Origin: Methanosarcina sp. Ant1
Lineage (GTDB): Archaea; Halobacteriota; Methanosarcinia; Methanosarcinales; Methanosarcinaceae
Length of the DNA stretch: 64,000 nt
NCBI GenBank assembly: GCA_001714685.2
Contig: MDTP02000005.1
Location: 1 to 64,000, forward strand
Reading direction: 5' to 3'
Below the pieces are notes generated by a model. It saw only the letters and a program-made list of their open reading frames with translations, did no database searches and was not told where the DNA came from. The position numbers and the translations under genes were made by a program. Shown in pieces: positions 59,739 to 64,000 of this stretch. Position 1 is the stretch's first letter; every line of letters begins with the position of its first letter.

Positions 59739-60582
<844 letters not shown>

Positions 60583-60918
60583 TTACTCACGCGGAATAAA
60601 CTTCTTATCGCGTTCGAACATCGCTATAATTGCCTCTCCGAAACCTTAAGCCCGGAAACAGCAAATAAAAATCAAGCGATTAGTCGGAATTGGTATGCTC
60701 TGAATAACATTTCTAGTACATAAAGATTATGTGCATCATGAGTTCCGAGCTGCTATAACTCCAAATGGCAAAAAGTGTTTACTTCTTCGACATCCGTTCA
60801 TACATCTCATAGTGTTCCTAAATCAAAGTTGCGCTGTTACACCCCATTGCAAACAGCGTGCATAACAAGTTAGAATGCATATGTTAAAACATTCTTGATA
60901 AGTTTTTTCAAAATATGT

Positions 60919-61035
60919 AGGACTTACGCACTTGAAGTACAAAATCAAGTACATTCGACTTTAAGGTTAAAGTCATACTTCAGGCAGTTTGAGGTTTAAA
61001 GCTTATTGATTTTTCTGTTCAACCGCGTAAGTCCT
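60919..61035. mobile_element. Miniature inverted-repeat element family 1, copy 3, with target duplication
   Basis: A 117-bp unit with ends AGGACTTACGCACTTGAA and the complement of AGGACTTACGCGGTTGAA. It is flanked by perfect 7-bp direct repeats AATATGT (60912-60918 and 61036-61042). It is the best preserved copy and shows the element moved as a unit. Confidence 0.85.
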
Positions 61036-61167
61036 AATATGTACAAAAAAGTACGGAAGAATTGTGCCCGTGTTTCCTTAATTCCGTGTTTTTACGTGGT
61101 TCTCAACATCACTTTTGCAAATTAGTCCGCTTGAACGAGCGAAGTGCGTGAAACGGACGGGGTACCA

Positions 61168-61209: not shown

Positions 61210-61724
61210 TGATGCCGAAGCAGAACTCGGCTGTTTGAACTAATTAATCTTGATTTAAGAAGTGTTTATCAAATTAGAAAGTCGATGTTCCGGGTTAATT
61301 TTGGGAGGCAGGGGATGCATTAGAAAGAAGGCCTAGTTTTATAATAGTAAAGGAATTATAGTATTTGGGGAACGATCAATGTGGTGGAAACGATCAATAT
61401 CGTGTCGTTTAGTATCCGGTCTGCAGGCAGGCGCTGAGCGGAGATTAGATTTTTTTGGAAATTTCAAAATGGAGGCTGAAGGTTGGTCGAGCCGCAAGGA
61501 GAAGAAGGCCGCGCTATTGGCCAGGGTTGCGCACATACTGATGTGTAGTGGTCACCGGTTACTGTTATGGATCAGGCGGCATAAACGCACTGCCCTCAAA
61601 GTCTTATTAATGGCCGGTATCAAAATGCAGATGATACATGGTAATCCAGATTTTTGTGGATTGATGAATACTGGGCTTTGCCCAAAATGATGAAACAAGC
61701 AAACATGAACTTGGTGATACTATT

Positions 61725-63356
61725 ATGCCTCAGACAGTAATTCAATATCTTCTGAATCGATTAAAACAGCTGGGCATCAGGGATATTTTCGGCGTGCCAG
61801 GAGACTATGCATTTCCTATCAACAATGCCATCTGTGACGATAAGGAGCTACGCTGGATCGGCTGCTGCAATGAACTGAACGCCGCTTACGCTGCCGACGG
61901 TTATGCTCGTATCAATGGCATGTCAGCGCTGTCTACTACATATGGGGTAGGTGAACTGTCCGCGCTATGCGGTATAGCAGGCTCATATGCGGAACATAAT
62001 CTGGTATTCCACATTGTCGGGATGCCGAAAATGCAGGCTCAGGAGAGACATGCCATAGTACATCATACGCTTGGCGACGGAGAGTTCGACACATTCATGA
62101 CCATGGCTACACCAGTCGTATGTGCGAAAGCGATGCTTACTCCGGAAAACTGCATTCAAGAAGTCGAACGTGTCATCGCGGCAGCTCTTGAGTATCACCG
62201 ACCCGCCTACATTGCTATCCCTCACAACTATGTGCACGAAAATATCGTACCCTCCACGGCATCTGCGAATTTACCTGTAAAAAGCAATCATGAAGCGCTG
62301 GAAGAAGTGGTTTCGGCCATAGTAAATAAGTTGTCGAATGCAAAGAAAGCCTGCATTATGCCAGGTATTCTTGTTGACCGTTTCGGGCTCAAGGACTTGA
62401 CCACGGCCGTTGTTACTGCTTCCGGCTTGCCTTATGTGACCATGGCATTAGATAAATCAGTGCTTGACGAGACTAATCCCTCCTACCTGGGATTATACAT
62501 CGGACAGCTTGCAAATCCTGAAATTAGCGAGTTCGTGGAATCCTGCGACTGCATACTTGCTATCGGCAGTATCCTGTCTGATACCAATATGGGTGGATTC
62601 ACGGCAAAACTGGACAAATCCCACATCATCAATATCATTCCTTACGATGTGCATATAGGGTATGCTGATTATACCAATCTAAAAATGTCTGATGTACTGG
62701 AGGAACTTGCCAAAAGACTTCATAAGCGTACTGATGTCAGGGGTCCTGCGGCAAAGAGTCCCACAACACCAGATGTAGACGCTGACGACCCGATAACGGC
62801 TGATTACTTATACGCGAGCTACGCGAAATTTTTTAAGCCTGACGATGTCATCATAGTGGATTCAGGCACATCCTTTTATGGCTTACTGCCAATATTTTTA
62901 CCGAAAGGAGCTAGGTTCCATAGCCAGACGCTCTGGGGGGCTATAGGCTGGGCTACCCCTTCTTCCTTTGGCGCCGCACTGGCTGCGCCTAATCGGCGAG
63001 TAATTCTCATAACTGGAGAAGGGGCACACCAGATGACCGCTCAGGAGGTCAGCCATTTTTACCGCTATGGTCTGAAGCCTATTATTTTCGTGCTGAATAA
63101 TCATGGCTACCTGATAGAAAGGATGCTATCCAAGAAGATCGATTACTATTACAATGACCTTACACAGTGGCAATATCATAAATTGCCAGAGGTACTTGGA
63201 TGCGATGGCTGGATGATGATAAAGGCCACCACCTGCGGCGATCTGGATAAGATCATGGCAGAACTGGATAATACTAAAACAGGCGCATACGTAGAGATAG
63301 TTACACCAGAGATGTCGGCACCCCCACTGATGGAGGCAATTCATAAAAATTTGTAG
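61725..63356 (+). CDS. Thiamine-diphosphate 2-keto-acid decarboxylase (pyruvate/indolepyruvate decarboxylase type)
   Basis: 543 residues, full length for the PDC/IPDC family, which decarboxylates pyruvate or other 2-keto acids to aldehydes. Catalytic residues sit at the positions I recall for Zymomonas PDC: Asp27 (GVPGDYAF), Glu50 (GCCNELNAAYA) and His113-His114 (AIVHHTLGDGEFD). The ThDP/Mg motif runs from GEGAHQMTAQEVS to LNNHGYLIE (about 431-464), with Glu464 matching the last catalytic Glu. There is no neighbouring alcohol dehydrogenase. Isolated between repeats and a terminator, so acquisition from bacteria is likely. Substrate unknown. Confidence 0.9.
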   Translation: MPQTVIQYLLNRLKQLGIRDIFGVPGDYAFPINNAICDDKELRWIGCCNELNAAYAADGYARINGMSALSTTYGVGELSALCGIAGSYAEHNLVFHIVGMPKMQAQERHAIVHHTLGDGEFDTFMTMATPVVCAKAMLTPENCIQEVERVIAAALEYHRPAYIAIPHNYVHENIVPSTASANLPVKSNHEALEEVVSAIVNKLSNAKKACIMPGILVDRFGLKDLTTAVVTASGLPYVTMALDKSVLDETNPSYLGLYIGQLANPEISEFVESCDCILAIGSILSDTNMGGFTAKLDKSHIINIIPYDVHIGYADYTNLKMSDVLEELAKRLHKRTDVRGPAAKSPTTPDVDADDPITADYLYASYAKFFKPDDVIIVDSGTSFYGLLPIFLPKGARFHSQTLWGAIGWATPSSFGAALAAPNRRVILITGEGAHQMTAQEVSHFYRYGLKPIIFVLNNHGYLIERMLSKKIDYYYNDLTQWQYHKLPEVLGCDGWMMIKATTCGDLDKIMAELDNTKTGAYVEIVTPEMSAPPLMEAIHKNL

Positions 63357-63634: not shown

Positions 63635-64000
63635 TTAAAAGGAGACGCTGAGAACAGACCGGGAAACCTTCCCAAGGATTGCTTCTATATCGCAGCCGAA
63701 CTTCCTTGCCACAAAAAGTGCCACGATCCGGATATCCACAAGGTAAGAAAGCCTTTCCTGCATAGAGTTAATTTCAGAAACAAGCTTTTGTCTGTTTACT
63801 CCTGTATCTGCGGAAATAAACTCAAGGACTTGCTCAAAGGAGATCTCTTCCTTGAGAGAAGAGGCTTTTCCTTTGGAATTTTCCTGGCTTTCGAGAAAAT
63901 TTTCCGACGGCTTAAAGGCATGAGGAAGTCGGACACTTTCCACATCAAAGGCAGGTATAAGAGTACCATCCTTAAGGGAGAGCAGACCTACTTCAAGGGC
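63635..64000 (-). CDS. DUF2240-like archaeal protein, 5' end outside window
   Basis: The frame runs open to the window edge, so an ATG at 63943 is probably internal. The visible 122 residues include EVGLLSLKDGTLIPAFD, VRLPHAFKPSENF, and a helical C-terminus (YLVDIRIVALFVARKFGCDIEAIL). The order, a short beta-hairpin domain then FKPSE and a C-terminal helix bundle, resembles the DUF2240 family found in euryarchaea. Function unknown. Confidence 0.6.
   Translation of the reverse strand, partial: ALEVGLLSLKDGTLIPAFDVESVRLPHAFKPSENFLESQENSKGKASSLKEEISFEQVLEFISADTGVNRQKLVSEINSMQERLSYLVDIRIVALFVARKFGCDIEAILGKVSRSVLSVSF

Follow-up and report, generated by a model that had tools for sequence, protein, structure and literature searches.

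When a stretch of 64,000 nucleotides from Methanosarcina sp. Ant1 (contig MDTP02000005.1, positions 1 to 64,000; the window in what follows) was annotated from its sequence, a gene for a complete decarboxylase of the pyruvate/indolepyruvate type (PDC/IPDC) was predicted near its right end. According to a 2013 review, no report of a PDC homologue had by then come from any archaeon (PMC4030962). The locus raises the questions of what such an enzyme would do in a methanogen, how its gene came to be there and whether it is specific to this strain.

The gene is intact. The reading frame extends from ATG to TAG with no internal stops, and the Pfam domains TPP_enzyme_N, TPP_enzyme_M and TPP_enzyme_C all score well over their cut-offs within one chain, as expected for the family, in which the N, M and C ThDP domains are combined in about 540-560 aa. 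In phmmer searches, residues 2-541 align with the Enterobacter cloacae IPDC (EcIPDC, 1ovm; E 4.4e-116), which bears out the prediction of a complete PDC/IPDC-type gene. A stretch similar to the possible ribosome binding site precedes most of the 16 aligned gene copies, and its pairing with the Methanosarcina 16S rRNA is our assumption. Structure prediction from eight Methanosarcina sequences (mean pLDDT 48.8, pTM 0.36) was too poor to be used for the fold or the pocket. The same genome encodes two further ThDP enzymes with 25-36% identity (C119, 9096-10487, and C75, 2336-3712), which are probably acetolactate synthase-like, although this is a guess.

Table 1. Features of the decarboxylase locus (positions are those of the window)
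Feature	Position	Strand	Basis and remarks
Ribosomal protein L18e, conserved left neighbour	60172..60552	-	ORF list, locus comparison; name presumed from sequence and gene neighbourhood
Miniature inverted-repeat element, incidental to the gene	60918..61036	.	Repeat and genome-match searches
Possible ribosome binding site TTGGTGAT	61711..61718	+	6 bases 5' of the ATG; read from the sequence
2-oxo acid decarboxylase (PDC/IPDC/KDC type, GEG clade)	61725..63356	+	543 aa; ORF list, Pfam/NCBIfam profiles, phmmer, alignment
Catalytic Asp27 codon	61803..61805	+	Alignment
Glu50 codon (ThDP activation)	61872..61874	+	Alignment; role of Glu50 from PMC10418658
His113-His114 (HH) motif codons	62061..62066	+	Alignment
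Phe384-Tyr385 codons, opposite EcIPDC Ala387-Phe388 and KdcA/KivD Phe-Phe	62874..62879	+	Alignment
Gly431-Glu432-Gly433 codons, GEG form of the GDG cofactor motif	63015..63023	+	Alignment
Catalytic Glu465 codon	63117..63119	+	Alignment
DUF-like protein, 168 aa, conserved right neighbour	63635..64000	-	Starts just past the window; serA is the next gene, also outside

The catalytic residues of the family, namely the Asp, the HH pair, Glu50 and the C-terminal Glu, are all present. Alignment confirmed the predicted Asp27, Glu50, His113 and His114, but the C-terminal glutamate, originally placed at about 464, is Glu465. Wherever they can be read, these residues are conserved across the 19 Methanosarcina copies (one contig, that of G020, is without the N-terminal part). 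A feature overlooked by the original prediction is the Mg/ThDP motif, which reads G431-E432-G433-X24-N458-N459, with GEG in place of GDG and a spacing of 24 residues versus GDG-X(25-30)-NN in the family. GEG occurs in 22 rows of a 45-row alignment and GDG in 23; the GEG rows comprise all 19 Methanosarcina sequences, the 51% relative from Proteus, a Streptomyces protein and one from Bacillota. Our literature search for variants of the GDG motif found none. In a cyanobacterial alpha-ketoglutarate decarboxylase of the same superfamily, Microcystis KGD (MaKGD), the Asp435Glu substitution yields 120% of the wild-type activity, and Asp435Ala and Asp435Asn show no activity, as given in section 2.6 of PMC10418658. 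Because this Asp435Glu variant is fully active, GEG is plausible as a working motif and no sign of a dead enzyme, and by analogy the GEG-form enzyme should be active.

Within Methanosarcina the gene is widespread, being found in 19 of 30 genomes (15 of 23 if only near-complete genomes are counted), and its full-length copies share 77-87% identity with the window protein. The carriers include what we take to be M. acetivorans and M. barkeri, which are genetically tractable. Outside the genus, homologues are rare and distant. The order-wide scan matched 22 of 185 genomes, that is, the 19 Methanosarcina and 3 of the 155 other Methanosarcinales, at 28-38% identity and in another clade; in the phylum sample, 23 of 392 genomes matched, 11 Methanosarcina and 12 others at 30-34%. 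The original claim that such an enzyme is unusual in methanogens thus stands with regard to its rarity among them, but not as a peculiarity of this organism, and broad presence in Methanosarcinales, which had been named in advance as a refutation, is seen within the genus but not beyond it. Many close relatives share both the gene and its location, so Methanosarcina acquired it long ago and it is no oddity of a single strain.

The nearest relatives of the gene product are bacterial. In a plasmid collection 742 records matched, none reaching 60% identity, and the best came from Proteus (51%) and Streptomyces (49%); a scan of 398 genomes from the phylum of G508 (a Clostridia record) yielded one relative at 38%. 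The homologues from Proteus mirabilis (L045) and Streptomyces sp. NBC_00316 (L046) align over nearly the whole protein and share with it GEG and all catalytic residues; the pocket stretch differs (TGTSSMG and TGTVSLG, respectively, in these bacterial hosts versus SGTSFYG in the window protein). We know of no matched activity for either homologue. In the gene tree, from which G020, with its gene split over two contigs, was omitted, a clade with support 100 unites Methanosarcina with Proteus and Streptomyces, the next to join is a Bacillota group, again with support 100, and EcIPDC and KdcA/KivD fall in separate clades. The phylogenetic check originally proposed against bacterial enzymes accordingly places the protein with bacterial homologues but with none of these reference decarboxylases, and agrees with the idea of a bacterial-type decarboxylase in a methanogen. 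Given that the nearest relatives are bacterial, one old acquisition from bacteria appears most likely. More than one transfer may have occurred, since monophyly of Methanosarcina has a support of only 71; an arrangement with Streptomyces nearer than Proteus was not rejected by the AU test (p-AU 0.128). The G+C content of the gene (0.473, neighbours 0.43-0.48) is like that of its surroundings, as expected for an old acquisition. Nine other archaeal homologues, drawn from the 15 found outside the genus (an earlier tree also contained nine, partly the same), group with the cyanobacterial homologue from Synechocystis with support 100, apart from Methanosarcina. Among the cyanobacterial relatives of these other archaeal PDC-like proteins (L033-L041, L122-L124), 2-oxoglutarate decarboxylases are known.

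The chromosomal site is conserved as well. The gene is alone on its strand, as predicted, both flanking genes running in the opposite direction, and rpl18e is the end of an rps2-rps9-rpl13-rpl18e cluster; the names DUF-like and serA are our reading of the sequences. Among 17 stretches fetched around full-length gene copies, 16 have the gene between rpl18e and the DUF-like gene with serA, and the G020 contig retains the right half of this arrangement, so that the usual site is occupied in 17 of the 18 gene-bearing genomes in which it can be read (the G015 contig lies outside this comparison). The exception is G016 (L050), where the gene adjoins ORFs that read as methyltransferase-like and a different contig carries the usual right neighbours. 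In the 11 gene-less genomes, the right neighbour was found in nine and both neighbours in eight, seven of which have a clean gap of 182-191 nt; in the eighth, G024, about 3.1 kb of other DNA separates the DUF-like gene from rpl18e (L089). In gene-less G009 (L075-L076), the DUF-like neighbour appears as two separate matches in different frames, as if frameshifted. Each of eight stretches representing other genera in the family shows rpl18e - DUF-like - serA without the decarboxylase gene, and the genomes of these stretches gave no match to the gene in the order and phylum scans. Because other genera have the same neighbours and no gene, the unoccupied arrangement is the ancestral one, and the gene was gained at the base of Methanosarcina or inside the genus. 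The earliest branch in the neighbour-gene tree, G021, has no decarboxylase gene; a gain after that split would need about four losses, to which repeated spread by recombination between the flanks is an alternative.

The original prediction placed the gene between a transposed miniature element and a terminator. The element is real: it is about 119 bp long, with 31-nt arms that are 81% complementary and ATATG on both flanks. The genome contains 42 matches to it, itself included, and at least two of the others fall on the same contig, near 41.3 and 42.4 kb. That it lies about 690 bases 5' of the ATG could suggest a recent insertion of the gene carried by it, a reading to which we assign practically no probability and which we reject. 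The gene occupies the same site in nearly all readable gene-bearing genomes, its G+C content matches that of its neighbours, and a search of the other 16 gene-bearing stretches revealed no complete element, but only a 42-bp partial match (G002) and a 24-bp match (G007); nor was the element found in 12 further stretches searched. Placement of the gene by the element is not supported. Downstream of the gene there is a perfect 10-bp inverted repeat (63375-63384/63400-63409), as supposed, but its 15-nt loop, the absence of a T run and the fact that a terminator scan did not list it speak against a terminator, and a script search did not find the repeat 3' of the other 16 copies.

The decarboxylase is under purifying selection, as befits a gene in use: its dN/dS against nine relatives is 0.14-0.20 (dS 0.47-0.95), a weaker constraint than on serA (0.05-0.11). 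Its history within the genus differs from that of its neighbours. In the neighbour-gene tree, the window's group (G000, the genome of the window, with G002, G016 and G018) joins what we take to be a barkeri-like group with support 100, and in the decarboxylase tree it joins a presumably acetivorans-like group with support 98. With G015 counted in the window's group, AU tests on the decarboxylase rejected the full neighbour-gene arrangement (p 4.5e-5) and monophyly of that group (p 0.0035); the joining of window and barkeri-like sequences was not rejected (p 0.113). Relative to G019, G001 and G007, dS of the decarboxylase (0.47, 0.61 and 0.69) is below that of serA (1.01, 1.11 and 1.09), and relative to G018 it is above (0.60 versus 0.45). 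Vertical descent without exchange is doubtful in view of this conflict between the decarboxylase tree and dS and the neighbour genes. The data suggest allele exchange at this site between the acetivorans-like and the window's lineages, subject to long-branch rooting and to neighbour data that are short and partly fragmentary (G015 was dropped for too few sites; G016, G020, G023 and G024 were kept with 602-694 of about 1600 sites).

Taken as a whole, the evidence makes it probable in our view that the product is a functional member of the PDC/IPDC/KivD family that decarboxylates a broad range of 2-oxo acids, its gene having been acquired from bacteria with subsequent losses. The product would be a ThDP/Mg-dependent non-oxidative 2-oxo acid decarboxylase in which, by the family mechanism, Glu50 would activate ThDP, the ylide would add to the 2-oxo acid and CO2 would leave, after which the Asp27/His113/His114/Glu465 set would protonate the intermediate and allow release of the aldehyde; Glu432 would replace the usual Asp as the Mg ligand. 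The substrates are most likely several medium-sized (branched, straight and aromatic) 2-oxo acids from amino acids, with pyruvate as a secondary substrate, and the aldehyde would then be reduced to an alcohol or oxidised. The bacterial gene would have entered the Methanosarcina lineage in the rpl18e - DUF-like - serA interval, and would have been inherited with several losses and probably exchanged between lineages at that site.

The predicted substrate range rests on comparison of pocket residues and on characterized relatives. The phenylalanine of the KdcA/KivD pocket (Phe381 and Val461 in KivD numbering) is present as Phe384, and the valine is replaced by the bulkier Ile464; pyruvate-type PDCs have Ile at that position, which would favour smaller substrates. 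Phe384 is opposite Ala387 of EcIPDC, a residue that affects specificity according to PMC9045302. The position of EcIPDC Gln383 is S or L among Methanosarcina copies, beside G, S or T, and, because it varies, specificity may differ between species. A decarboxylase of P. mirabilis JN458 is described as broad in specificity: 4-methyl-2-oxopentanoate is its best substrate, and it accepts pyruvate as well as indole, aromatic and branched keto acids. This species carries two genes of the kind, 52% and 35% identical to that of the window, and the assayed enzyme could be the product of either. The original suggestion of a substrate other than pyruvate is plausible.

A true pyruvate decarboxylase, which would turn pyruvate into acetaldehyde and, via an Fe-dependent alcohol dehydrogenase (Fe-ADH), into ethanol as an electron outlet, is unlikely. 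The phmmer score against yeast PDC (365 bits) nearly equals that against IPDC (392; KivD/KdcA 358/355), but Zymomonas/Acetobacter-type PDCs, far from being the closest, reach only about 245-272 bits (Zymomonas PDC 261-266). Ile464 would suit such an enzyme, whereas Phe384 is that of KdcA/KivD. A strong Fe-ADH match is present in 17 of 19 gene-bearing versus 4 of 11 gene-less genomes (Fisher p 0.004, with kinship among these related genomes uncorrected and the cut chosen after inspection of the table), which also lends weak support to aldehyde reduction in general; AOR, an alternative partner for the aldehyde, showed no association (7 of 19 versus 6 of 11). Against this reading are also the gene-less species, which do without the gene, and the ferredoxin oxidoreductase route already available for pyruvate (PMC4030962).

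An indolepyruvate/phenylpyruvate decarboxylase, whose aryl acetaldehyde products would be converted to aryl acetates or alcohols, is distinctly unlikely. The protein's best solved match and best NCBIfam model (TIGR03393, the equivalog) are indolepyruvate decarboxylases, and the M. barkeri gene is labelled ipdC under tryptophan metabolism in a table of PMC12195604; yet the TIGR03393 score of 476.8 bits is well under the curated cut-off of 946, and EcIPDC, although similar in fold family (by sequence), length and catalytic residues, has GDG, belongs to a different clade and carries Ala387 where Phe384 should narrow the pocket. KdcA/KivD (2vbf, 9msa) likewise share the catalytic residues, and the Phe, but differ in GDG, in Val for Ile464 and in clade. 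A main role other than decarboxylation, such as acyloin formation by a ThDP carboligase or regulation by a decarboxylase-like protein, is very improbable. Enzymes of the family are known to carry out carboligation as a side reaction, and we know of no characterized member of the GEG clade, but purifying selection has preserved the decarboxylase residues, Glu465 among them.

Beyond the broad-range decarboxylase that we favour, the GEG clade might constitute a distinct ThDP decarboxylase subfamily in which a Glu metal ligand comes with its own metal preference or substrate, and which in Methanosarcina would provide an Ehrlich-like outlet from amino acids to aldehydes and alcohols, not described in methanogens and passed between species at one site; as a whole we regard this proposal as speculative and doubtful.

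In the literature searched we found no characterization of a Methanosarcina decarboxylase of this type, and the one direct mention is a row in a table of a 2025 study, which lists M. barkeri MS MSBRM_0475 as "ipdC, pyruvate decarboxylase" (PMC12195604). MSBRM_0475 is very likely the orthologue of the window gene, because a single gene of this kind occupies this site in the majority of the Methanosarcina genomes examined. It was reported up 2.56-fold in co-culture with Geobacter, but exactly the same figure stands in no fewer than four of the table's rows, which points to low read counts. The gene has thus already been annotated in M. barkeri, and what is new here is a family member with an unusual motif variant. 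A full-length bacterial-type homologue is present in most of the Methanosarcina genomes examined despite the statement in the 2013 review, and its GEG motif makes it possible to ask in a natural enzyme how far the GDG metal motif tolerates change. If active, the enzyme would allow methanogens to convert 2-oxo acids to aldehydes independently of ferredoxin.
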